In this document: piece by piece, positions 5,038 to 19,939 of the stretch
Layout: each line of letters begins with the position of its first letter
How positions within the stretch are numbered: the stretch's first letter is position 1
Source: Halobacteriales archaeon QH_10_67_22
GTDB taxonomy: Archaea > Halobacteriota > Halobacteria > Halobacteriales > Haloarculaceae
DNA length: 37,703 bases
Assembly: GCA_003021305.1 (NCBI GenBank)
Contig: PXQN01000003.1
Span: 40,164 to 77,866, forward strand
Direction of reading: 5' to 3'
The notes under the pieces: model-generated
What the model was told of the DNA's origin: nothing
The model's database searches: none
The model's input: only the letters and a program-made list of their open reading frames with translations
Position numbers and translations under genes: made by a program

Positions 5038-5370
5038 ATGCCAAGGCCAGAGGTTCTCGACCGTATCAAGTCGGTCGAGCAGGAGGCAGACGAGATCGTC
5101 GCCGAGGCCGAGGAGGCGGCCGACGAGCGGATCGCCGAGGCACGCGCGGAGGCCGACGAGACCCGCGAGCAGGCCCGTGAGGACGCCGAGGCCGACGCCC
5201 AGGAGCGCCTCGCGGAGGCCCGCGAGGAGATCGAGGCCGAACGCGAGCGCATCCTCGCGGAGGGTGAAGACGAGCGCGAGGAACTCGTGGCGGCGGCCGA
5301 CGACCGCACGGACGAGGTCGTCGAGTTCGTCGTCACCCAGTTCGAGGAGGCGGTGCATGCTCAGACCTAA
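5038..5370 (+). CDS. atpH: A-type ATP synthase subunit H (peripheral stalk)
   Basis: 110 residues, almost entirely Glu/Ala/Arg/Asp in one long coiled coil (EQEADEIVAEAEEAADERIAEARAE). Subunit H pairs with subunit E as the peripheral stalk that links the A1 head to membrane subunit I and resists rotation torque. It is the first gene of the atp operon. Its last 14 bases overlap atpI. Low-complexity coiled coil alone would be ambiguous, but position directly before atpI settles the call. Confidence 0.9.
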   Translation: MPRPEVLDRIKSVEQEADEIVAEAEEAADERIAEARAEADETREQAREDAEADAQERLAEAREEIEAERERILAEGEDEREELVAAADDRTDEVVEFVVTQFEEAVHAQT

Positions 5371-7657
5371 GCGCATGAGCAAAGTGTCCGTGACGGGCGC
5401 GTCGGCCGTCATGGACGACGTCATCGAGACGGTCCACGACCTCCACGTGGTCCACCTCTCGGAGTACGAGGGTCGCTGGGACGGGTTCGAGAACGGCACG
5501 CCACTGGCGGGCGGCGACGAGGCCTCGGAGAAGCTCGTCACCGTCCGCTCGCTCAAGAGCATCCTCGGGGTCACCGACGAGGACGCCGGTCCCAGCCGGA
5601 TCGTCACCGACGAGGGACTCGAGGCGGAACTCGAGGAGATCCGGGTCGAGGCCAACGAACTCGACGACCGCCGCAACGAACTGGAGGGCGAACTCCGCGA
5701 GGTCGAGGACCGCGAGACCGCGATGGAGCCGTTCGCGACGCTGGGTATCGACCTGGACCTGCTGTGGGGGTACGACTCGCTTTCGGTCCGGGTCGGCGAG
5801 GGTGACCCCGACTCCGTCGCGGACGCACTCTCGGACCTGGACGCCCCGACCGAGGTGTTCGCCGAGGACGGCGTCGTCGCCGCGTTCGCCCACACCGACG
5901 AGGGGACGCTCCAGGACGCCCTCGTCGAGGCCGACTTCGGCGCCGTCGAGGTGCCCCACGAGGAGGGCGACCCCCAGGCGGTCCTGGCCGACCTCGAACA
6001 CCGCGAGAGCGAACTCGAATCCAACCTGGAGACCGTCGAGCACGAACTCGAGGACCTGCGCTACGACGCCGCGGGCTTTCTCCTGGCCGCCGAGGAGAAA
6101 CTGTCCATCGAGGCCCGGAAGGCCGAGGCACCCCTCTCGTTTGCGACGACCGACAACGCCTTCGTCGCGGAGGGGTGGCTCCCGACCGAACGGGTCGAGG
6201 AGTTCGAGCGGACGGTTTCGGACGCCGTCGACGGCCACGTCCACATCGAGGAACTGGAGGTCGCGGAGTACGACCGTCACGGCCACGGCCACGCCGAAGA
6301 GGTCGGCCACGAGGGGGCCATCGAGGACGTCGCGCCCGAACCGGGGACCGACGAGAGCCCCGACGGCGTGGCAGCCGACGAGTCCGCCCCACAGGAGGCA
6401 CGGGCGGACGGCGGTTCGACGAGCGACGCGAGTCGGTCCTCGTCGGACGGTCGTTCCGACGGGGGGTCCGCCGAGGTTCGCTCCGACGGCGGAACCGTGA
6501 CCATGGGCGAGACAGACGACCCGCCGGTCGTCCAGGACAACCCCGACGTGATCGAGCCGTTCGAACTGCTCACGAAGGCGGTCGGGCGACCCAACTACTC
6601 GGAGTTCGACCCGACCTTCCTGCTCTTTCTGACCTTCCCGCTGATGTTCGGGTTCATCATCGGTGACTTCGGCTACGGGCTGATCTACACGGGCATCGGC
6701 TACTACATCTACGCGAAGTTCGACAGCGACGCGTTCCGGAACCTCGGAATCATCACGATGGCGGCGGGTGCGATGACGACGCTGTTCGGTATCCTGTACG
6801 GCGAGGTATTCGGACTCCACCTCATCGCCGACGAGTTCTGGGTGGCCGTCGTCGGCCTGGAACACGCCCCCATCGAGAAGGGACTGTCGCCCGCCACCGG
6901 CTACTGGGCGCGGGCGTGGTTCGTCGTCACCGTCCTGTTCGGCATCGTCCACCTGAACATCGCGTACGTCCTCGAGTTCCTCGAGGGGTACTCGCTGCAC
7001 GGCGCCAAGGAGGCCGTCATCGAGAGCGGGTCGTGGATCCTGGCGCTGAACGGCCTCTGGCTGTTCGTCTTCAGTCGCCTGTTCGACGGTGCGAAACCGA
7101 ACTTCCTCTTCGAGGTGTTCGACGGGGGCGAGGGCGCGGCGTTCGCGCTCGGGTTCACCGGTCTGCCGGCCGAGGTCGGGATGGTCGGCGGCGGGATGGT
7201 GCTGGCCGGGATGGGGCTGCTGGCCGTCGGCCCGGTCCACGAACTCATCGAGATCCACGTCGTGCTGGCCCACGCGCTGTCGTACCTGCGGATCGCCGCC
7301 GTGTTGCTCGCCAAGGCGGGGATGGCCTTCGCGGTCAACCTCCTCTTTTTCGGTGCCTACGAGCACCACGGCGAGTTCCACTTCATGCTCGACCACGGCC
7401 CCGAGTGGGTCGCAAACGAGTACGGCCAGTCGGCGATCATCTTCGGCGGGATGTTCCACGGCAGCACGCTCATGCTGGTGCTGGGTGTGCTCGTGTTGGT
7501 CCTGGGACACGTCGTCGTGCTCATCCTCGGGGTCACCTCCTCGGGCATCCAGTCGATCCGTCTCGAATTCTTCGAGTTCTTCGAGAAGTTCTACGACGGC
7601 AACGGCGACGCCTACTCGCCGTTCGGCACCGACCGGGTGTTCACCCGCGACCAGTAA
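5357..7657 (+). CDS. atpI: A-type ATP synthase subunit I (membrane stator, a-subunit equivalent)
   Basis: 766 residues from the ATG at 5357 (MLRPKRMSKVSVTGASAVMDD), overlapping the end of atpH by 14 bases. The N-terminal soluble half (1-300) has long helices. Residues about 305-395 form a His-, Ser-, Gly- and Asp-rich linker (RHGHGHAEEVGHEGA, later SDASRSSSDGRSDGGS). The C-terminal half has about seven to eight membrane helices, starting FLLFLTFPLMFGFIIGDFGYG. The conserved segment HALSYLRIAAVLLAKAGMAF carries the arginine that faces the rotor-ring glutamate during proton transfer. The protein provides the two half-channels for H+ and anchors the peripheral stalk. The polar linker is longer than I would expect in non-halophile homologues. 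Confidence 0.95.
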   Translation: MLRPKRMSKVSVTGASAVMDDVIETVHDLHVVHLSEYEGRWDGFENGTPLAGGDEASEKLVTVRSLKSILGVTDEDAGPSRIVTDEGLEAELEEIRVEANELDDRRNELEGELREVEDRETAMEPFATLGIDLDLLWGYDSLSVRVGEGDPDSVADALSDLDAPTEVFAEDGVVAAFAHTDEGTLQDALVEADFGAVEVPHEEGDPQAVLADLEHRESELESNLETVEHELEDLRYDAAGFLLAAEEKLSIEARKAEAPLSFATTDNAFVAEGWLPTERVEEFERTVSDAVDGHVHIEELEVAEYDRHGHGHAEEVGHEGAIEDVAPEPGTDESPDGVAADESAPQEARADGGSTSDASRSSSDGRSDGGSAEVRSDGGTVTMGETDDPPVVQDNPDVIEPFELLTKAVGRPNYSEFDPTFLLFLTFPLMFGFIIGDFGYGLIYTGIGYYIYAKFDSDAFRNLGIITMAAGAMTTLFGILYGEVFGLHLIADEFWVAVVGLEHAPIEKGLSPATGYWARAWFVVTVLFGIVHLNIAYVLEFLEGYSLHGAKEAVIESGSWILALNGLWLFVFSRLFDGAKPNFLFEVFDGGEGAAFALGFTGLPAEVGMVGGGMVLAGMGLLAVGPVHELIEIHVVLAHALSYLRIAAVLLAKAGMAFAVNLLFFGAYEHHGEFHFMLDHGPEWVANEYGQSAIIFGGMFHGSTLMLVLGVLVLVLGHVVVLILGVTSSGIQSIRLEFFEFFEKFYDGNGDAYSPFGTDRVFTRDQ

Positions 7658-10118: not shown

Positions 10119-11885
10119 ATGAGTCAAGCAACTGATACAACTGTGCGCGAGGACGGCGTCATCGACAGCGTCTCGGGGCCGGTCGTCACGGCCAGGGACC
10201 TGGACGCGAAGATGAACGACGTCGTCTACGTCGGCGAGGAAGGTCTGATGGGCGAGGTCATCGAGATCGAAGGCAACATCACGACGATCCAGGTGTACGA
10301 GGAGACCTCGGGGGTCTCCCCGGGCGAACCCGTCGAGAGCACGGGCGCGCCCCTCTCGGTGGACCTGGGTCCGGGCATGCTCGACTCCATCTACGACGGC
10401 GTCCAGCGCCCGCTGGACGTCTTAGAAGAGAAGATGGGGTCGGCGTTCCTGGACCGGGGCGTCGACGCGCCGGGGATCGACCTGGAGAAGACCTGGGAGT
10501 TCGAACCCGAGGTTTCCGAGGGCGACGCGGTCGAACCCGGCGACGTCGTCGGTAGCGTCCCGGAGACGCCGAGTATCGACCACAAGGTGATGGTCCCGCC
10601 CGGCTCCGAGGGCGGGGAGGTCACCGCGGTCGAGTCGGGCGAACTCACCGTCGAGGAGGCGGTGGTCGAACTCGACTCGGGCGAGGAGATACAGATGCGC
10701 CAGGAGTGGCCGGTCCGCCAGGAACGGCCCACCGTCGACAAGCAGACGCCGACCGAACCGCTCACGTCGGGCCAGCGCATCCTCGACGGGCTGTTCCCCC
10801 TCGCGAAGGGCGGGACGGCCGCCATCCCCGGCCCCTTCGGGTCGGGCAAGACCGTCACCCAGCAGTCGCTGGCCAAGTTCGCCGACGCCGACATCGTCGT
10901 CTACATCGGCTGTGGCGAGCGTGGCAACGAGATGACCGAGGTGATCGAGGACTTCCCCGAACTGCCCGACCCACAGACCGGCAACGCGCTGATGGCCCGG
11001 ACCTGCCTCATCGCCAACACGTCGAACATGCCCGTCGCCGCCCGCGAGTCCTGCGTGTACACGGGGATCACCATCGCGGAGTACTACCGCGACATGGGCT
11101 ACGACGTGGCGCTGATGGCCGACTCGACGTCGCGGTGGGCCGAGGCGATGCGGGAAATTTCGAGCCGACTCGAGGAGATGCCCGGCGAGGAGGGCTACCC
11201 CGCGTACCTGGCCGCGCGCCTGTCGGCCTTCTACGAGCGGGCCGGCTACTTCGAGAACATCAACGGGACCGAAGGGTCGATTTCGGTGATCGGCGCGGTC
11301 AGCCCCCCCGGCGGTGACTTCTCGGAGCCGGTGACCCAGAACACGCTGCGTATCGTCAAGACGTTCTGGGCGCTGGACTCGGATCTCGCCGAGCGGCGTC
11401 ACTTCCCGGCGATCAACTGGAACGAGTCGTACTCGCTGTACCGGGACCAGCTGGACCCGTGGTTCGAGGACAACGTCGCCGACGACTGGTCCGAGCAGCG
11501 CCAGTGGGCCATCGACGTCTTGGACGAGGACGGCGAACTCCAGGAGGTCGTCCAGCTGGTCGGCAAGGACGCCCTGCCCGAAGACCAGCAGCTCACCCTG
11601 GAGATCGCCCGCTACCTCAAGGAGGCGTGGCTCCAGCAGAACGCCCTCCACGACGTCGACCGCTACTGTCCGCCCGAGAAGACCTACCGCATCCTGGGCG
11701 CGATCAAGACGCTGAACGACGAGGCCTTCGACGCGCTGGACGCGGGCGTTCCGATCGAGGAGATCACCGACATCGACGCCGCGCCCCGGCTCAACCGCAT
11801 CGGGACGACGCCCGACGACGAGGTCGAGGAGTTCGTCGATGACCTCGAAAGCGAGATCGCAGAGCAACTGCGCTCACTGTACTAA
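10119..11885 (+). CDS. atpA: A-type ATP synthase catalytic subunit A
   Basis: 588 residues. The Walker A motif GPFGSGKT at about 238-245 and the family's long non-homologous insertion (about 120-200) identify the catalytic A subunit. Further family landmarks: [31 protein letters not shown] (Walker B region) and [15 protein letters not shown]. Three copies alternate with B in the A1 head and make or hydrolyse ATP. No intein is present, although archaeal A subunits sometimes carry one at the P-loop. Starts one base after atpF. Confidence 0.98.
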
Positions 11886-11887
11886 CA

Positions 11888-13294
11888 ATGAAAGAGTACC
11901 AGACAATCACGGAGATAAGCGGGCCGCTGGTGTTCGTCGAGACCGACGAACCCATCGGCTACGACGAGATCGTCGAGATCGAGACCGCCGACGGCCAGAA
12001 GCGCCGCGGGCAGGTGCTCGACAGCGCCGCCGACCACGTCGCAATCCAGGTGTTCGAGGGCACCGAGGGTATCGACCGCGACTCCTCGGTCACGTTCCTC
12101 GGCGAGACGATGAAGATGCCCGTCACCGAGGACCTGCTCGGCAGAGTCCTGGACGGGTCGGGCAACCCCATCGACGACGGGCCCGACATCGTCCCCGACG
12201 ACCGCCGGGACATCGTCGGCGAGGCCATCAACCCCGTCTCCCGGGAGTACCCCGAGGACTTCATCCAGACCGGCGTCTCTGCCATCGACGGCATGAACAC
12301 GCTGGTCCGGGGGCAGAAACTGCCCATCTTCTCGGGGTCGGGACTCCCCCACAACGACCTGGCGTTACAGATCGCACGCCAGGCCGCAGTCCCCGAGGAG
12401 GAGGAAGGCGGCGAGGGCTCGGAGTTTGCAGTGATCTTCGGCGCGATGGGGATCACCGCCGAGGAGGCAAACGAGTTCATGGACGACTTCGAGCGCACCG
12501 GTGCGCTGGAGCGGTCGGTCGTCTTCATGAACCTCGCGAACGACCCCGCAGTCGAGCGGACGATCACGCCGCGGCTGGCGCTGACGACCGCCGAGTACCT
12601 CGCGTTCGACGAGGGGTATCACGTGCTGGTCATCCTGACAGACATGACCAACTACTGTGAGGCGCTGCGCGAGATCGGCGCCGCACGCGAGGAGGTGCCC
12701 GGCCGACGCGGCTATCCGGGCTACATGTACACCGACCTCGCACAGCTGTACGAGCGCGCGGGTCGCATCCGTGGCCAGGACGGGTCTATCACCCAGATCC
12801 CCATCCTGACGATGCCCAGCGACGACATCACCCACCCGATCCCGGACCTGACGGGGTACATCACGGAGGGACAGATCCTCGTCGACCGGGACCTCAACAG
12901 CCAGGGGGTTCAGCCGCCGGTCAACGTCCTGCCGAGCCTCTCGCGGCTGATGGACGACGGGATCGGCGAGGGGCTGACCCGTGGCGACCACGGCGGCGTC
13001 TCCGACCAGCTGTACGCCGCCTACGCCGAGGGCGAGGACCTGCGGGACCTCGTGAACATCGTCGGCCGCGAGGCCCTCTCCGAACGGGACAACAAGTACC
13101 TCGACTTCGCCGAGGCGTTCGAGGAGACGTTCGTCGAACAGGGGTACGACACCAACCGCGACATCGAGGACACCCTCGAGATCGGCTGGGACCTCCTCTC
13201 GATGCTCCCGAAGGCCGAACTCAACCGCGTCGACGAGGACTACATCGAGCAGTACTACGTCGAAGACGTCGAAGCCGAAGTCACCGCCGACTGA
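11888..13294 (+). CDS. atpB: A-type ATP synthase regulatory subunit B
   Basis: 468 residues. The P-loop position is degenerate ([11 protein letters not shown] instead of GxxGxGKT), the mark of the non-catalytic B subunit. Other landmarks are [41 protein letters not shown] and [14 protein letters not shown]. It provides the arginine-bearing interface to subunit A. It starts two bases after atpA. It is the last gene of the contiguous atp operon: the next co-oriented gene is the bat-like regulator, and atpD is about 6 kb away. Confidence 0.98.
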
Positions 13295-13492: not shown

Positions 13493-15601
13493 ATGAGTCG
13501 TCCGGGACAAGGATCGGGCATGACGGTATCGAGCAGCGGACGGTCCGGACGTGTTCTCTACGTCGACCCGGACGACGATGCGGCCGGGCCAGTGCTGGAC
13601 GTGCTCGGGCAGGCAGCCTTCGCCGTCGAGCACGTTCGGGACGCAGCGACGGCCCGCGAGCGGCTGAACGACGGGTTCGACTGCGTCGTCAGCACACAGG
13701 ATCTACCCGACGGGACGGGGCTGGACCTGCTCGGGACGGTCCGCGAGGCCGACGACGAGTTCCCGTTCGTCCTCTTTCCCGACGAGGGCGACGAACGCCT
13801 GGCCAGCGAGGCCATCTCGGTGGGCGTCAGCGACTACGTCCCCCGCGAGCCGGTCCCGAAACAGCGGCTGGCACTGGTCGACGCCGTCGAGCGCGTCGTC
13901 TTCGGGAGCCCCGAGTTCCCCGCGGTGAGCGAACAGCTCAAAGACCGGGCCATGGACGAGGCGCCGGTCGGGATCACCATCGCCGACGCCTCGCGCCGGG
14001 ACATGCCGCTCATCTACGTCAACGACGCCTTCGAGGAGCTGACCGAGTACACGGAGGCCGACTCGCTGGCGCGCAACTGCTCGTTCCTGCAGGGCGACGA
14101 CAGCGACCGCGCTGCTGTCGCGGAGATGTCGCGGGCGCTGGGCGCCGGCGACCCCGTCTCCGTCGAGATCAAAAACTACACCAAATCCGGTGAGCCGTTC
14201 TGGAACCGGGTCGACATCGCACCCGTCCACGAGGACGGCGAACTGACACACTACGTCGGCTTCCAGCTGGACGTGACCGAACGCGTCGAGGCCGAACGCG
14301 AGGCCAGACGCCAGGCCGAGAAAGCCCGCGCCGAGCGCGAGACCGTCGAGGCACTGCTGGCCCGCCTGGACGGGCTGGTCACCGACGTGACCAGCGGCCT
14401 GCTGGGTGCGGGCACGCGGTCGGCGGTCGAGGCAGCCGTCTGTGATCGCCTGGTCGAGACCGAGGAGCACGCCGTCGCCTGGATCGGCGACAGCGACCCC
14501 GCGACCGACACCATAACGCCGAGCACCTGGGCCGGCGGTGACGACCCCGAGGGGTTCGCGGTCGACCTGGACGACGGCGGTCCCGTCGCCCGGGCCGTCG
14601 AAACCGGTGAGTTACAGGTCGTCGCTGCCGACGGCGACGGCGAGTCCGAGCGTGAGCACGAACGCGAGACCGGCGCTGCCGTCGACCGCTCGGCCGACGG
14701 CGGCACGGTGGCGGCCGACGAGGCGAGGAGGGGCGTACTGGCCGAGTACGCCGACGTCGTCGGCGAGGAGGTCGCGGCGGTCGCAGCACTACCCCTGCAG
14801 TACGGCGATGTGGGGTACGGCGTCCTCGTGGTCGCGTTGCGGGCCGGCGCGCGACTGAGCCAGCCCGAGCGGCGTGTCCTCTCGGCGGTCGGCACGTCGA
14901 CGGCGATGGCGCTCCACGACCTGACGAGCCAGCGACTGCTCGCCTCCGACGACGTGATCGAGCTCGAGTTCGCCCTGAACGGCTCCGAGCCCTTCTTCGT
15001 CGGCCTGTCGGGGGTACTGGGCGCGTCGTTCGGCCACGTCGGGACGGTCGCCCGCGACGACGGCCCGACGACGCTGTTTTTCGAGAGCGACGCCGACCCG
15101 GACGCGGTCACGGCTACACTTGAGGACCGCGGCGACGGGACGACCGTCACGGCCGTGACGACCGTCGACGACCGCTCGATACTGGAGTTCGTCGTCGAGT
15201 CCTCGCCACTCTTTGACCTGCTGAGCGACCGCGGCGGGCGCGTCACCGACATGCACGCGGCGGGCGGCGCCGGGCAGTTGACGCTCGAACTCCCGCCCGA
15301 AGCCCAGCCGCGTGAAGTCGTCGAGACCATCGAGGAGGCGATCCCGGGCGCGGACCTGACCGCGTACCGCGAACACGAACGACCGGCCGAGACGCGCCAG
15401 GACGTCCGGACCCGCATCGACGAGCGCCTCACCGACCGCCAGGAGACCGCGCTCCAGACCGCCATCGTCGGCGGCTTCTTCGAGTGGCCCCGCGATTCGA
15501 CCGGCGAGGAACTCGCCACCACCATGGACATCGGCCGCTCGACGTTCCACCAGCACCTCCGTGCCGCCCAGCGCAAAGTGTTCGAGGAACTGTACGGCTG
15601 A
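13493..15601 (+). CDS. bat: Bat-type regulator with degenerate receiver, LOV-like PAS, GAF and HTH domains
   Basis: 702 residues from the ATG at 13493; ATG 13520 (MTVSSSGRSG) is an equally fair start, ATG 13367 unlikely. Domains: receiver-like (20-125), PAS (150-265), coiled linker, GAF-like (about 290-475), Bat-associated domain (about 485-625), HTH_10 (645-700, DRQETALQTAIVGGFFEWP). The receiver lacks its phosphoacceptor: Thr68 stands where Asp is expected (VVSTQDLPDG), and Arg118 replaces the conserved Lys. The PAS carries LOV hallmarks: RNCSFLQG with Cys196, KNYT (Asn228), FWN (Asn238) and VGFQLDVTE (Gln258). Bat is the known activator of bop and carotenoid genes. Direct light sensing via flavin is inference from these residues. 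The gene lies 198 bases after atpB and 150 before bop. Confidence 0.9.
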   Translation: MSRPGQGSGMTVSSSGRSGRVLYVDPDDDAAGPVLDVLGQAAFAVEHVRDAATARERLNDGFDCVVSTQDLPDGTGLDLLGTVREADDEFPFVLFPDEGDERLASEAISVGVSDYVPREPVPKQRLALVDAVERVVFGSPEFPAVSEQLKDRAMDEAPVGITIADASRRDMPLIYVNDAFEELTEYTEADSLARNCSFLQGDDSDRAAVAEMSRALGAGDPVSVEIKNYTKSGEPFWNRVDIAPVHEDGELTHYVGFQLDVTERVEAEREARRQAEKARAERETVEALLARLDGLVTDVTSGLLGAGTRSAVEAAVCDRLVETEEHAVAWIGDSDPATDTITPSTWAGGDDPEGFAVDLDDGGPVARAVETGELQVVAADGDGESEREHERETGAAVDRSADGGTVAADEARRGVLAEYADVVGEEVAAVAALPLQYGDVGYGVLVVALRAGARLSQPERRVLSAVGTSTAMALHDLTSQRLLASDDVIELEFALNGSEPFFVGLSGVLGASFGHVGTVARDDGPTTLFFESDADPDAVTATLEDRGDGTTVTAVTTVDDRSILEFVVESSPLFDLLSDRGGRVTDMHAAGGAGQLTLELPPEAQPREVVETIEEAIPGADLTAYREHERPAETRQDVRTRIDERLTDRQETALQTAIVGGFFEWPRDSTGEELATTMDIGRSTFHQHLRAAQRKVFEELYG

Positions 15602-15693: not shown

Positions 15694-15708
15694 TTCCAAC
15701 TAGTTCGG
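15694..15708 (+). promoter_or_regulatory. Bat-type upstream activator sequence of bop
   Basis: TTCCAACTAGTTCGG matches 13 of 15 positions of the haloarchaeal bop-regulon UAS as I recall it (ACCnnactagTTnGG), with the core ACTAGT palindrome intact. Its centre lies about 20 bases before the TATA box and about 47 before the predicted transcription start, close to the spacing in Halobacterium. The only such site I found in the window. It implies control by the adjacent Bat-type protein. Confidence 0.7.
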
Positions 15709-15751: not shown

Positions 15752-16510
15752 ATGCCACAACCAGGAAGCGAAAGCATTTGGCTATGGATAGGCACCGCAG
15801 GAATGTTCCTCGGCATGTTGTACTTCATCGCGACAGGCTGGGGCGAGGACGACGAGAAACGCCAGGAGTTTTTCATCGTCACCATATTCATCGCCGCCAT
15901 CGCGTTCTCGAATTACCTCGCGATGGCGCTCGGGTTCGGGCTCACAACGGTGTCGGTGGGGGGTGAAGAGCTCCCCATCTACTGGGCCAGGTACACCGAC
16001 TGGTTCTTCACGACGCCGCTGTTGCTGATCGACCTCGGGCTGCTGGCGGGCGCGAACCGCAACCAGCTCTCCGCGCTGGTCGGCCTGGACGCGCTGATGA
16101 TCGGTACCGGCGCAGTCGCGACGCTGGCCGGCGGCGGCTTCGCCGTGTTCGGCCTCGGTGACGGCGCACGCCGCCTCATCTGGTGGGGCGTCAGCACGGG
16201 CTTCCTGCTCGTCCTGCTGTACTTCCTGTTCGGCACGCTGAGCCAGCAGGCACAGGCGCTGTCCAGCGAGGTCGGCTCCAAGTTCGCACAGCTGCGCAAC
16301 CTGATCGTGGTCGTCTGGCTGGTGTACCCGGCCTGGTGGCTGCTTGGGACCGAAGGGCTCCAGCTGGTCAGTCTCTCTATCGAGACGGCCGGATTCATGG
16401 TGCTCGACCTGACCGCGAAGATCGGCTTCGGGTTCCTGTTGCTGTCGAGCCGGCAGGTGCTCGACGACGTCTCCGAGGCGTCGGCGGGCGCGACGACCAC
16501 GGCAGACTGA
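15752..16510 (+). CDS. bop: Bacteriorhodopsin-type light-driven proton pump
   Basis: 252 residues, seven membrane helices. Helix C reads [20 protein letters not shown]: Arg80, proton acceptor Asp83 and proton donor Asp94 match Arg82, Asp85 and Asp96 of Halobacterium BR. Asp113 (LDALMIGTG) matches Asp115. GTEG and SIET supply Glu201 and Glu211 of the proton-release group, and [12 protein letters not shown] gives counter-ion Asp219 and retinal-binding Lys223. The DTD pattern with Leu91 indicates a green-absorbing outward H+ pump, not a chloride pump (TSA) or sensory rhodopsin. Sequence texture resembles cruxrhodopsins. A Bat-type UAS and TATA box precede it; crtY and brp follow and would supply its retinal. 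Confidence 0.97.
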
Positions 16511-16695: not shown

Positions 16696-17421
16696 ATGTC
16701 GACGCTGACGTACCTGGCGTTTCACGCGCGGTTCGTCGTCCCGGCGCTCATCGCGCTGGCGGCGGTGGCGCGCTGTCGGCGGCCCGAGTCCGTCGACGTC
16801 CGCGTCCACGGCGTCGGCGTCGGCGTGCTCCTCGCCCTCGCCGTCGTCTACACGACGCCCTGGGACGCCACCCTCATCGAGCGGGGCGTCTGGTGGTACG
16901 GCGACGGCCGCGTCACGGGCTGGGTGTTCGGCGTCCCGGTCGGGGAGTTCCTGTTTTTCGTCCTGCAGCCGCTGCTCACGTCGCTGTGGACGCTCCAGGT
17001 CGCCGGCCCGGTCGTCGAGGGCGTCAGCCACTCCCGGCGTGACCGACTCGTCGGCGCGGCCGCCGGACTGGCGGTGAATCTCGCCGGGTTCGCGGCGCTC
17101 ACCGGGACGTCGACCATGTATCTCGGCGCCATCCTCGCGTGGGCCGGACCGATCCTGGCGCTCCAGTGGGCGGTCGGCTGGCGATACCTCCTCCGGGTAC
17201 GTCGCCGCGTCGTCCTGGCCGTCGGCGTCCCGACGGTCTACCTGTGGGTCGCCGACTGGTACGCCATCGCCGACGGCGTCTGGGTCATCTCCGGAACCCA
17301 CACGACGGGGCTGGCCGTCGCCGGCCTCCCGGTCGAGGAGATGGCCTTTTTCCTCGTGACGAACCTGTTCGTCGTCCAGGGGCTGGTCCTGTTCCGGTGG
17401 GTGGTGAGCCGATGGCGGTAG
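16696..17421 (+). CDS. crtY: Lycopene beta-cyclase, fused CrtYc-CrtYd type
   Basis: 241 residues from the ATG at 16696 (MSTLTYLAFHARFVVPAL); the ORF-track start is 22 codons upstream in unconserved sequence. Two similar halves of three to four membrane helices each carry the family motifs: VYTTPWDATLIERGVWWY and PVGEFLFFVLQP in the first, SGTHTTGLAVAGLPVEEMAFF in the second. This corresponds to the bacterial CrtYc/CrtYd heterodimer fused in one chain, as in Halobacterium crtY. It cyclises lycopene to beta-carotene in the membrane, the substrate for the next gene product. Its last 10 bases overlap brp. It begins 185 bases after bop, where I see no clear UAS, so it may be read through from bop. 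Confidence 0.92.
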   Translation: MSTLTYLAFHARFVVPALIALAAVARCRRPESVDVRVHGVGVGVLLALAVVYTTPWDATLIERGVWWYGDGRVTGWVFGVPVGEFLFFVLQPLLTSLWTLQVAGPVVEGVSHSRRDRLVGAAAGLAVNLAGFAALTGTSTMYLGAILAWAGPILALQWAVGWRYLLRVRRRVVLAVGVPTVYLWVADWYAIADGVWVISGTHTTGLAVAGLPVEEMAFFLVTNLFVVQGLVLFRWVVSRWR

Positions 17422-18440
17422 CGACCGACCGCGGGCTGTCAGCGGGCGTCCGCGAGACGCTGCGGGTCCCCGTCGTGTGGCTGCCGTGGCTGCCGGTCGC
17501 GACCTGTACCCTGGCGTTCGGTGCGGGCCTGTCGGTCCCCGAGCGGTGGCGATACCTCCCGCTGGTGGCGAGCGTCGTCGTCCTCGGACTCCCTCACGGT
17601 GCCGTCGACTGGGCGGCGCTCCCGCGGGCGGTCGCCGGTCGCCTCGACGCCCGCTGGGTCGGCGCCGTCGGGCTCATCTACCTCGTCGTCGGCGGCGCCT
17701 ACGCCGCGGGCTGGTTTCTCGCACCCGTCACCGCGGCCGTCGCCTTCGTTGCGGTCACGTGGTTCCACTGGGGCCAGGGCGAGGTCCACCCGCTCGTTGA
17801 AGTGGTGGGCGCCGACCACCTGGACGCGACCCCGCGGCGGGCGCTGTTCGTCGTCGTCCGTGGCGGACTCCCGATGCTCGTCCCGTTGCTCGCCTTTCCC
17901 GACCGGTATCGGGCGGTCGTCGCGGCCTTCGCGGCCCCGTTCGGCGGGCGGGTCGCGACGTGGCCGGTCACGCCGGGCGTTCGACTGGCGCTGGGCGTCG
18001 CCTTCGGCGCGCTGACCGTCTTCTCGCTCGCGGCGGGCTACCGGGCGGCCGACGAGCGGCGGGCGTGGGCGGTCGACGCCGGCGAGACCGGCCTGCTGTG
18101 GGCGTACTTCCTCGTCGTCCCGCCGGTGTTCGCCATCGGCGTGTACTTCTGTTTCTGGCACGCCGCCCGCCACGTCGCGCGCGTGCTCACGCTGGACGAC
18201 CGGGCGACAGCGTCGCTCTCGCGCGGACAGCTCCGGCCCGCACTCGCCCGGTTCGCGAAGGAAGCGGCGTTACCGACCGCCGGCGGACTCGTCGTCCTCG
18301 GGGTGCTGTGGACGAGTGCGCCCGCGCCGCCGACGACGCTGGCAGGCGTAGTGGCGCTCTACCTGGTCGCCATCGCCGTCATGACACTGCCCCACGTCGT
18401 CGTGGTGACGTGGCTCGACAGGGTCGACGGGTACTGGTAG
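17412..18440 (+). CDS. brp: Brp/Blh-type beta-carotene 15,15'-dioxygenase
   Basis: 342 residues from the ATG at 17412, inside the end of crtY. Multiple membrane helices carry the conserved histidine motifs of the Brp/Blh family: LGLPHGAVDW (His62), TWFHWGQGEVH (His119 and His126), YFCFWHAARH and LPHVVVVTW. These bind the iron that cleaves beta-carotene into two retinals. With crtY it completes retinal supply for the adjacent rhodopsin. Overlap with crtY suggests coupled translation. Paralogues brp and blh cannot be separated from sequence alone. Directly after the stop lies the 16-base 3'-end element described separately. Confidence 0.92.
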   Translation: MAVATDRGLSAGVRETLRVPVVWLPWLPVATCTLAFGAGLSVPERWRYLPLVASVVVLGLPHGAVDWAALPRAVAGRLDARWVGAVGLIYLVVGGAYAAGWFLAPVTAAVAFVAVTWFHWGQGEVHPLVEVVGADHLDATPRRALFVVVRGGLPMLVPLLAFPDRYRAVVAAFAAPFGGRVATWPVTPGVRLALGVAFGALTVFSLAAGYRAADERRAWAVDAGETGLLWAYFLVVPPVFAIGVYFCFWHAARHVARVLTLDDRATASLSRGQLRPALARFAKEAALPTAGGLVVLGVLWTSAPAPPTTLAGVVALYLVAIAVMTLPHVVVVTWLDRVDGYW

Positions 18441-18537: not shown

Positions 18538-18553
18538 TTACGCACGACCGTAT
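18538..18553 (-). repeat. 3'-end element, copy B (after DUF5615 gene)
   Basis: Minus-strand ATACGGTCGTGCGTAA, whose first base is the last base of this gene's stop triplet region (TGATACGG), then CTAATTT. It forms a perfect 16-base inverted pair with copy A 77 bases away, so the two convergent genes brp and the DUF5615 gene end in facing copies. Confidence 0.6.
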
Positions 18554-18876
18554 CAGACCCAACCGTCGGGCAGGTAGATAGTCTGTTCGGTCAGATCGGT
18601 GTCAGCTAACAGGTCCTCGACAGTACGGACCGCGTTGACGAGGTCACGACGTGTGGTCGACTGGTCGTCGTAGTAGAGGACACCGCCTTCCGGGCGGTCG
18701 ACGAAATCGCTGTCGTTCGTCAGGAGGAGGTAGCCACGGTCGGTCGCGTGCGAGAGAACGTCGGTGTCGGCAGTACCTGGCTCCAGTTCGTCGGTGACAG
18801 TCGCAACTTCGATCCCCTCGCCACGGAGTGCGTTGACGACTGGTGGAGGAACGTGCTCGTCACAGAGGATCCTCAT
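18553..18876 (-). CDS. DUF5615 PIN-like protein, putative toxin of a TA pair
   Basis: 107 residues. The start MRILCDEHVPPPVVNALRGEG with Asp6-Glu7, an acidic residue near LSHATDRGYLLLTNDSDF (Asp in TNDSDF) and the overall size match DUF5615, a PIN-like nuclease family (COG4634 type). It is usually encoded beside a DUF433 protein as a toxin-antitoxin-like module. The ATG overlaps the stop of the DUF433 gene (ATGA). Nuclease activity and toxicity are inferred from the family. The pair is on the strand opposite to the flanking bop and atpD genes. Confidence 0.8.
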   Translation of the reverse strand: MRILCDEHVPPPVVNALRGEGIEVATVTDELEPGTADTDVLSHATDRGYLLLTNDSDFVDRPEGGVLYYDDQSTTRRDLVNAVRTVEDLLADTDLTEQTIYLPDGWV

Positions 18877-19157
18877 GCCCGGCGCGTGAACTCTTCGGGG
18901 TCGGGCTGCTCATCGCGTGCCGTCTCTGCTGTTGCCCGCTTCCGGCGGCGCCACTCTCGCATCTCGTCCGGGTGGTCGTAGTAGTACGCCACGGCCCGAT
19001 ACACGTCGGCGATATCGAGGTCGAAATCCGCCGCGACCGACGCAGGAGCTTCGTCACCGTCGAGTACCCGGTTGACCACGTGAAGCACGCCGATGCGCCG
19101 GCCCTTGATGCGTGGTTCGCCACCGAGAACGTCGGGCGTCGAGACGATGTCTGCCAT
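18873..19157 (-). CDS. DUF433 protein, putative antitoxin
   Basis: 94 residues from the ATG at 19157 (MADIVSTPDVLGGEPRIKGRRIGV); the 19250 start would run into the atpD promoter. DUF433 is a winged-helix family: LGGEPRIKGRRI is the signature, followed by a helix-turn-helix-like DLDIADVYRAVAYYYDHPDEM. The C-terminus is highly charged. It is the first gene of the pair, with a TATA-like box 28 bases upstream, and likely binds both its own promoter and the DUF5615 partner. Role inferred from the family and arrangement. Confidence 0.8.
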   Translation of the reverse strand: MADIVSTPDVLGGEPRIKGRRIGVLHVVNRVLDGDEAPASVAADFDLDIADVYRAVAYYYDHPDEMREWRRRKRATAETARDEQPDPEEFTRRA

Positions 19158-19180
19158 ACGAGACTGTTCGTCGGTTCGGG

Positions 19181-19225
19181 ATAAAAACCTGTGCTCGTTC
19201 GGAACTGGACTGAAAACGATTAACT
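19181..19225. promoter_or_regulatory. Divergent promoters: DUF433 pair and atpD
   Basis: Minus-strand AGGTTTTTAT (19181-19190) is centred 28 bases before the DUF433 ATG, and plus-strand GATTAACT (19218-19225) about 28 bases before the atpD ATG. Both fit leaderless transcripts. The second indicates that atpD is transcribed on its own, not from the distant atp operon. Confidence 0.5.
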
Positions 19226-19249
19226 GGCTCGCCCCGAAAGTCCCCGTCA

Positions 19250-19939
19250 ATGGCCAAAGACGTCAAACCCACGCGCAAGGAGTTGATGCAGATCGAGGAG
19301 CGCATCGAACTCTCCGAGCGGGGTCACGACACGCTCGAACAGAAGCGCGACGGCCTCATCATGGAGTTCATGGACATCCTGGACGAGGCCAAGGACGTCC
19401 GGTCGGAACTGGAAGCCACCTACGACGACGCCCAGCGCGCCATCAACGTCGCGCGGGCACTCGACGGCGACGTCGCCGTCCGCGGAGCCGCCGCGGCGCT
19501 CAAGGAACACCCCGAGATCACGACCGAGTCCAAGAGCGTCATGGGCGTGTTCATCCCACAGATAGACTCCACGAAGGTCCGCAAGAACCTCGACGAGCGC
19601 GGGTACGGCGTCCTGGGGACGAGCGCGCGCATCGACGAGGCCGCCGAGGCCTACGAGGAACTGCTCGAACAGATCATCCTCGCCGCCGAGGTCGAGACGG
19701 CGATGAAAAAGATGATCGAAGAGATCGAGACCACCAACCGCCGGGTCAACGCCCTCGAGTTCAAGCTCCTCCCCGAACTCCGCGAGAACCAGGAGTACAT
19801 CGAGCAGAAACTCGAAGAGCAGGAACGCGAAGAGATCTTCCGCATGAAGAAGGTCAAAGACAAGAAAGAAGAGCAGGAACGCGAAGAACGCGAGGCCGAA
19901 AAAGAAGAGGAAGAGGAGCCGGTCCCCGCCGACGACTGA
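19250..19939 (+). CDS. atpD: A-type ATP synthase subunit D (central rotor axle)
   Basis: 229 residues, starting [25 protein letters not shown]. Long N- and C-terminal helices form the coiled-coil axle, with the family motif [18 protein letters not shown] near residues 163-180. The C-terminus is an extreme Glu/Lys/Arg run ([20 protein letters not shown]). Subunit D transmits rotation from the K ring to the A3B3 head. It is separated from atpB by about 6 kb holding bat, bop, crtY, brp and a TA-like pair, so its expression must be balanced with the main operon from another promoter (TATA-like box 28 bases upstream). Confidence 0.96.

Follow-up and report, generated by a model that had tools for sequence, protein, structure and literature searches.

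The PAS domain of the Bat protein encoded directly upstream of bop in the stretch of DNA analysed here (37,703 nucleotides, hereafter the window) is, judged by sequence and predicted fold, of the LOV type, its match to LOV lying far above chance. I consider it likely that this Bat is a modular activator through which bop responds to blue light sensed by a genuine LOV domain, the flavin being held loosely or with indifference to its phosphate. LOV domains in Bat-like proteins were known before; new here is a variant that lacks both of the arginines contacting the flavin phosphate. In Halobacterium salinarum, Bat mediates the induction of bop by light and low oxygen (PMC3184054), and direct light sensing by Bat has been suggested, not established, in the literature.

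Residues are numbered from the methionine at 13493 as residue 1, a second in-frame methionine at 13522 being an alternative start. The gene and its parts are located as follows:

13493..15601, plus strand: bat gene, 702 aa (PF15915 BAT, E 1.5e-36; PF04967 HTH_10, E 9e-19)
13547..13903, plus strand: REC (receiver) domain, residues 19-137 (domain match and predicted fold)
13943..14278, plus strand: LOV domain core, residues 151-262 (sequence matches and predicted fold)
14276..14407, plus strand: continuous helical linker from LOV to GAF, residues 262-305 (full-length model)
14417..14941, plus strand: GAF domain, residues 309-483 (domain match and predicted fold)
14948..15409, plus strand: BAT domain, residues 486-639 (domain match)
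15428..15586, plus strand: HTH_10 DNA-binding domain, residues 646-698 (domain match)

The order REC-LOV-GAF-BAT-HTH_10 includes the GAF-BAT-HTH_10 architecture of the Bat family (PF13185, PF15915 and PF04967, respectively). In a motif alignment, the phospho-acceptor aspartate in strand beta-3 of the REC domain is replaced by threonine in the window and by glutamate in 9/9 relatives of its clade (defined below), which makes a pseudo-receiver probable. LOV and GAF are joined by a single unbroken helix (262-305) in the full-length model (pLDDT 87.8 overall), whose pTM of 0.47 leaves the relative placement of the domains unsure. The distance from Q258 to G294 is either 37 or 30 residues in 105/106 Bat-type proteins, and the gap between these classes is exactly 7, or one heptad, as expected if a coiled-coil helix carried the signal from LOV to GAF.

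The original prediction had named four residues as the light-reacting set of a LOV domain: Cys196 in RNCSFLQG, Asn228 in KNYT, Asn238 in FWN and Gln258 in VGFQLD. Translation from the methionine at 13493 puts each of them where it was said to be, and in the alignment all four occupy canonical LOV positions:

14078..14080, plus strand: Cys196, adduct-forming position (alignment; invariant in 49/49 Bats directly upstream of bop)
14174..14176, plus strand: Asn228, isoalloxazine contact (alignment)
14204..14206, plus strand: Asn238, isoalloxazine contact (alignment)
14264..14266, plus strand: Gln258, N5-responsive glutamine in strand I-beta (alignment)

The GxNCRFLQ-type motif around the adduct cysteine is present as ARNCSFLQG, deviating by Ala193 for glycine and Ser197 for arginine. 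On this domain, 128.7 bits are reached by the YtvA blue-light family of NCBIfam and 47.1 bits by the generic PAS family. A phmmer search of the PDB returns PAL as the best match (6hmj, E 5e-32), and the remaining identifiable top matches are likewise LOV proteins, namely YtvA, LOV histidine kinases (LOV-HK) and phototropins. The AlphaFold2 model of the LOV domain (pLDDT 90.7), when submitted to Foldseek, finds LOV structures in 50/50 among the matches listed, including Meiothermus LOV, YtvA, PpSB1-LOV and Chlamydomonas Phot-LOV1. Residues, family score, PDB matches and predicted fold thus all confirm the LOV-type flavin photoreceptor signature. Positions R63 and R79 of YtvA, used below, are numbered on what I take to be its LOV sequence. 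At least three other LOV domains of the same genome (G000; C19:17601-18359, C51:12993 and C41:5171) carry GRNCRFLQ or GKNCRFLQ in full, and one of these is arranged in tandem with another LOV/PAS domain.

In LOV domains a pair of conserved arginines, R73 and R89 in DsLOV, holds the flavin phosphate (PMC4335406). The corresponding positions in the window are:

14081..14083, plus strand: Ser197, at the first phosphate-arginine position (YtvA R63, DsLOV R73; alignment)
14129..14131, plus strand: Ser213, at the second phosphate-arginine position (YtvA R79, DsLOV R89; alignment)

Earlier, a single phosphate arginine had been reported as lost; this is right for the first, replaced by Ser197, but overlooks that the second has gone too. 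The adduct cysteine occurs in 83 of 106 distinct Bat-type LOV domains. Of these 83, 68 carry arginine or lysine at each of the two phosphate positions, in 5 the second alone is missing, and in 10 neither is present. The ten form one supported clade in a tree built from the LOV domain to the C-terminus (support 100, starred), consisting of the window, the metagenome-assembled genomes QS_4_69_31, QS_5_68_33 and QS_9_67_15, four named Halosimplex species and two further genomes, with the double loss in 10/10 members. Position 197 is asparagine, aspartate or serine in this clade and position 213 is alanine or serine. An assembly error as the source of Ser197 was rejected, as nine relatives from other assemblies likewise lack the arginine and have asparagine or aspartate.

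The remainder of the flavin pocket is largely preserved in the ten sequences: N195, C196, Q200, N228, N238 and Q258 are invariant, as are the ring-lining residues T162, M212, I242, Y254, V255 and G256, and the changes are conservative ones at 199, 216 and 240 and alanine for Gly193 in two rows. Within the clade (n=10) the pairwise identity of the LOV domain (0.77) is higher than that of REC (0.66), GAF (0.70) and BAT (0.73), and lower than that of HTH (0.91). The phosphate site is thus lost selectively, without general decay of the domain. A degenerate Bat-type LOV is seen in another locus (L082, at 5055-5450), where Cys is replaced by Tyr, Gln200 by Arg and Asn228 by Ser; with these three lost together, decay looks unlike what is found in the clade of the window.

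If the domain works as its residues suggest, blue light would lead the flavin C4a to react with Cys196, the adduct would reorient Gln258, and this switch would be relayed along the linker helix to the GAF and HTH domains, thereby tuning the transcription of bop. With neither phosphate arginine left but the contacts to ring and ribityl chain kept, the flavin would most likely be loosely bound, or could be any of FMN, FAD and riboflavin; a loose flavin would be expected to have an altered adduct lifetime and probably a sensitivity to its redox state. Mutation of two other arginines of the phosphate cluster in PpSB1 makes dark recovery 280-fold faster (PMC5314338). The Bats with Pro or His in place of the adduct cysteine (see below) have lost the second phosphate arginine and kept the first, and one such protein, BAT-LOV*, binds FAD, FMN and riboflavin with modest loading (PMC4682037); for these reasons I predict loose and phosphate-indifferent binding in the clade of the window, possibly with fast dark recovery. 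Flavin identity and affinity are the weak point of the LOV reading with both arginines lost, and the double loss could abolish useful flavin binding altogether.

The neighbourhood of bat gives the proposed light input its likely target. Along the window, atpA, atpB, bat, bop, crtY and blh are followed by two small minus-strand open reading frames and then by atpD:

10119..11885, plus strand: atpA, A-type ATP synthase subunit A (ORF; named from sequence and homologues)
11888..13294, plus strand: atpB, A-type ATP synthase subunit B (ORF; named from sequence and homologues)
15696..15708, plus strand: UAS-like box CCAACTAGTTCGG upstream of bop (exact CCNACTAGTTNGG match, with ACTAGTT)
15752..16510, plus strand: bop, bacteriorhodopsin-type proton pump (PF01036, E 2.4e-64)
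16696..17421, plus strand: lycopene cyclase, crtY-like (PF18916, E 2.3e-8; inferred start)
17412..18440, plus strand: blh-type beta-carotene 15,15'-dioxygenase (PF15461, E 1e-75; approximate start)
19250..19939, plus strand: atpD (ORF; PF01813, E 2e-58 at 19280-19861)

The bat-bop-crtY-blh block is therefore placed inside the A-type ATP synthase operon, between atpB and atpD, and atpA/atpB precede bat in the loci of relatives from many genera as well. Verma et al. 2020 (PMC7755889) already described this setting, in which atpB and atpD enclose bop together with bat, crtY and blh. The two small open reading frames in the gap between blh and atpD (window 18553-19250, minus strand) look toxin-antitoxin-like by eye. 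In four other loci (L125, L129, L130 and L131) a rhodopsin directly follows atpB and no Bat was detected in the vicinity, an arrangement known from Haloarcula. A bop that occupies such an ATPase operon in the absence of bat, HmBRI, is reported to be expressed constitutively and not to respond to light (PMC7755889), a point against the proposed light input.

The 150 nt between the end of bat and the start of bop include the one place in the window where CCNACTAGTTNGG matches exactly (15696-15708); with two mismatches allowed, the window has 12 matches against 6.8 expected. ACTAGTT is located at -53 relative to the bop ATG in the window and in 8/8 clade relatives with a readable bop start, with flanks that are otherwise diverged. 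The locus of Halosimplex aquaticum (L035, 6900-8000) keeps bat, crtY and blh and misses bop between bat and crtY, and ACTAGTT occurs nowhere in the fetched locus. I liken the box to what I take to be the UAS of Halobacterium bop, and because of this resemblance the CCAACTAGTTNGG box before bop is a putative target of the Bat HTH domain. In line with the supposition that bop is under a Bat-type UAS, bop adjoins bat and a conserved UAS-like box lies at a fixed distance before it; control by Bat through this box is putative. A direct switching of both rhodopsin and carotenoid genes had also been proposed. Its rhodopsin half, a direct link to bop, is well supported, like the LOV identity, by family, fold, conservation of the cysteine in all Bats directly upstream of bop and the fixed position of the box. 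For the carotenoid half, crtY and blh follow bop on the same strand, but in the window no exact copy of the box precedes either of them, only bop, so direct control of these two genes by Bat is an inference. Redox control had been assigned to the GAF domain in the same proposal; published work on a Cys-less Bat LOV traces redox sensitivity to the flavin of the LOV domain instead (PMC4682037).

Relatives were drawn from named genomes and from a further set that comprised up to 394 genomes of the class; with full-length Bat as query, a cut-off of E 1e-100 proved over-strict and split the matches. Where bat immediately precedes bop in the same orientation, the LOV cysteine is found in 49/49 distinct loci from many genera, and convergent bat/bop arrangements have it in 6/6. 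In the stand-alone bop arrangement, with the rhodopsin upstream of bat in a separate cluster, it is found in 0/21 loci, 16 of them having Pro and 5 His; these locus counts are not counts of independent events. The Cys set came mostly from Bat queries (19 Cys-bearing Bats were also recovered from rhodopsin-chosen neighbourhoods), and the Cys-less set was chosen by closeness of LOV and rhodopsin matches. The 16 Pro loci have bop and bat on one strand and belong to one genus group (g21), taken to be Halorubrum; a 17th Pro Bat lies on a short fetched locus without rhodopsin. In the 5 His loci bop is divergent, and in L147, L195 and L198 a brp/blh-like gene stands between, which is the order of H. 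salinarum. The rhodopsins of the two arrangements are split by a starred branch of support 99 in the rhodopsin tree.

In the LOV-to-C-terminus tree, the Pro clade joins one Cys row (L022; 99, starred) and the His clade joins two others (L055 and L135; 100, starred). At least three changes of state are needed at the adduct position, one to Pro, one to His and one to a degenerate Tyr, and a single clade of Pro and His Bats is rejected (p-AU 0.002). This tree is unrooted, and a rooted LOV-only tree with outgroups is poorly resolved, with 20/118 inner branches starred. Cysteine is present in YtvA and in 14/15 other archaeal LOV rows used as outgroup, the remaining one (OG_L006) being without the motif. 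As the Cys-less clades nest among Cys rows and the outgroup LOVs carry Cys, Pro and His are best read as separate changes, both losses of cysteine. With Cys196, and with the Pro and His rows forming two other clades, the LOV domain of the window stands outside the Cys-less BAT-LOV* type. The tree speaks against the published idea that the Cys-less Bat LOV may go back to an ancestral redox LOV, because Pro and His sit apart among Cys-bearing relatives.

The domain might instead be a redox sensor in the first place, its loose flavin reporting the redox state, as at low oxygen, with the cysteine merely speeding photoreduction and forming no lasting adduct. The Cys-less Bat LOV lends itself to this view: BAT-LOV* binds all three flavins and shifts conformation on reduction, and its P188C variant is photoreduced faster, to the hydroquinone, without an adduct, so that cysteine alone is insufficient (PMC4682037). 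Furthermore, the clade of the window has a fixed tyrosine, Y254, at a position that lies near the ring according to the LOV literature, and low oxygen induces bop in H. salinarum (PMC3184054). However, a pure redox LOV would have no need for the cysteine, which is invariant directly upstream of bop and among bop-linked Bats is lost in the stand-alone-operon groups only, and the quenching Trp of BAT-LOV* is Phe180 in the window; I hold this reading to be unlikely. Very unlikely, in my estimate, is a degenerating LOV that has lost its phosphate anchor, carries no flavin in vivo and persists as a structural PAS domain. The loss of both arginines and the aspartate at the first site in two relatives would fit, and flavin occupancy can be low even with all arginines present (about 10% in W619_1-LOV, PMC5314338), but nearly every contact to ring and ribityl chain is invariant across the clade, the domain is more conserved than REC, GAF and BAT, and the true decay in L082 looks different.

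A variant of the main reading would have Arg168 and Arg169, in the loop between A-beta and B-beta, replace the lost arginines, so that ordinary FMN binding is kept. Arginines occupy both positions in 10/10 clade members while 169 is Pro in 61/74 other rows, and the flavin pocket of PpSB1-LOV reaches toward the same loop (PMC5314338); yet these arginines may be mere surface charges, and I regard the relocation as rather doubtful. The LOV blue-light input with a loosely held flavin, which I prefer, also has a bolder extension, possible though rather improbable: the clade would consist of adduct-forming LOVs without phosphate anchoring, in which riboflavin or any flavin is exchangeable, making the activator of bop responsive to light and, at the same time, to flavin supply or redox state; the ATPase-operon branch would be light-gated, and stand-alone purple-membrane operons would twice have swapped the cysteine for redox-type control.

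How haloarchaea sense light for rhodopsin becomes, through Bat, a directly testable question. The single Bat LOV studied biochemically is Cys-less and is here placed in one of two Cys-less branches. As the adduct cysteine is retained in the Bats next to an ATP-synthase-linked bop, the Cys types of Halosimplex and Halorubrum could be compared with the Pro and His types, and the clade without phosphate arginines offers a natural test of what these arginines do in LOV domains.

Among known systems, Bacillus subtilis YtvA and PAL (6hmj) share the LOV core, key residues and fold with the Bat of the window and differ in their output domains; both keep the first phosphate arginine, and YtvA keeps both. 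ALovD-1 from Lake Diamante is a canonical haloarchaeal LOV with a photocycle measured up to 3 M salt (PMC12202551); unlike the window protein, it stands in a histidine kinase context and has a GXNCRFLQ-type motif with the arginine kept. The bop locus of PMC7755889 has the same ATPase-operon setting, and the accessible text of that paper does not address the LOV character of bat. Archaeal LOV-HTH proteins, with a Bat-like arrangement noted, were catalogued by Losi, Mandalari and Gartner 2014 (PMC4844311), and like the Bat of the window they combine a canonical LOV with HTH in haloarchaea; the accessible part of that paper reports neither a relation of the adduct residue to the type of bop operon nor the double arginine loss. 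H. salinarum Bat, of the bop-brp-bat cluster, is likewise a bop activator with PAS/LOV-like, GAF and HTH_10 parts. It lacks the adduct cysteine according to PMC4844311, which agrees with the His in its place, in contrast to the Cys of the window, in the H. salinarum-type clade with bop-divergent brp-bat order (L147). Light induction nevertheless requires this Bat, so its branch has a light control that is independent of an adduct, a further point against the light-input reading. BAT-LOV* of Halorubrum hochstenium, the Cys-less Bat LOV of Yee et al. 2015 (PMC4682037), shares with the window protein the order of REC, LOV, GAF and HTH, the annotation and the LOV family, and differs in having Pro at the adduct position, the first phosphate arginine kept and a quenching Trp. 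The Pro clade matches it by Pro196, Tyr171 and Trp180 at the same spacing, and five of its LOVs were counted to contain neither Cys nor Met. In the Pro clade bat comes after bop, within a separate cluster. The protein of the window belongs to another clade, with the adduct cysteine in place.
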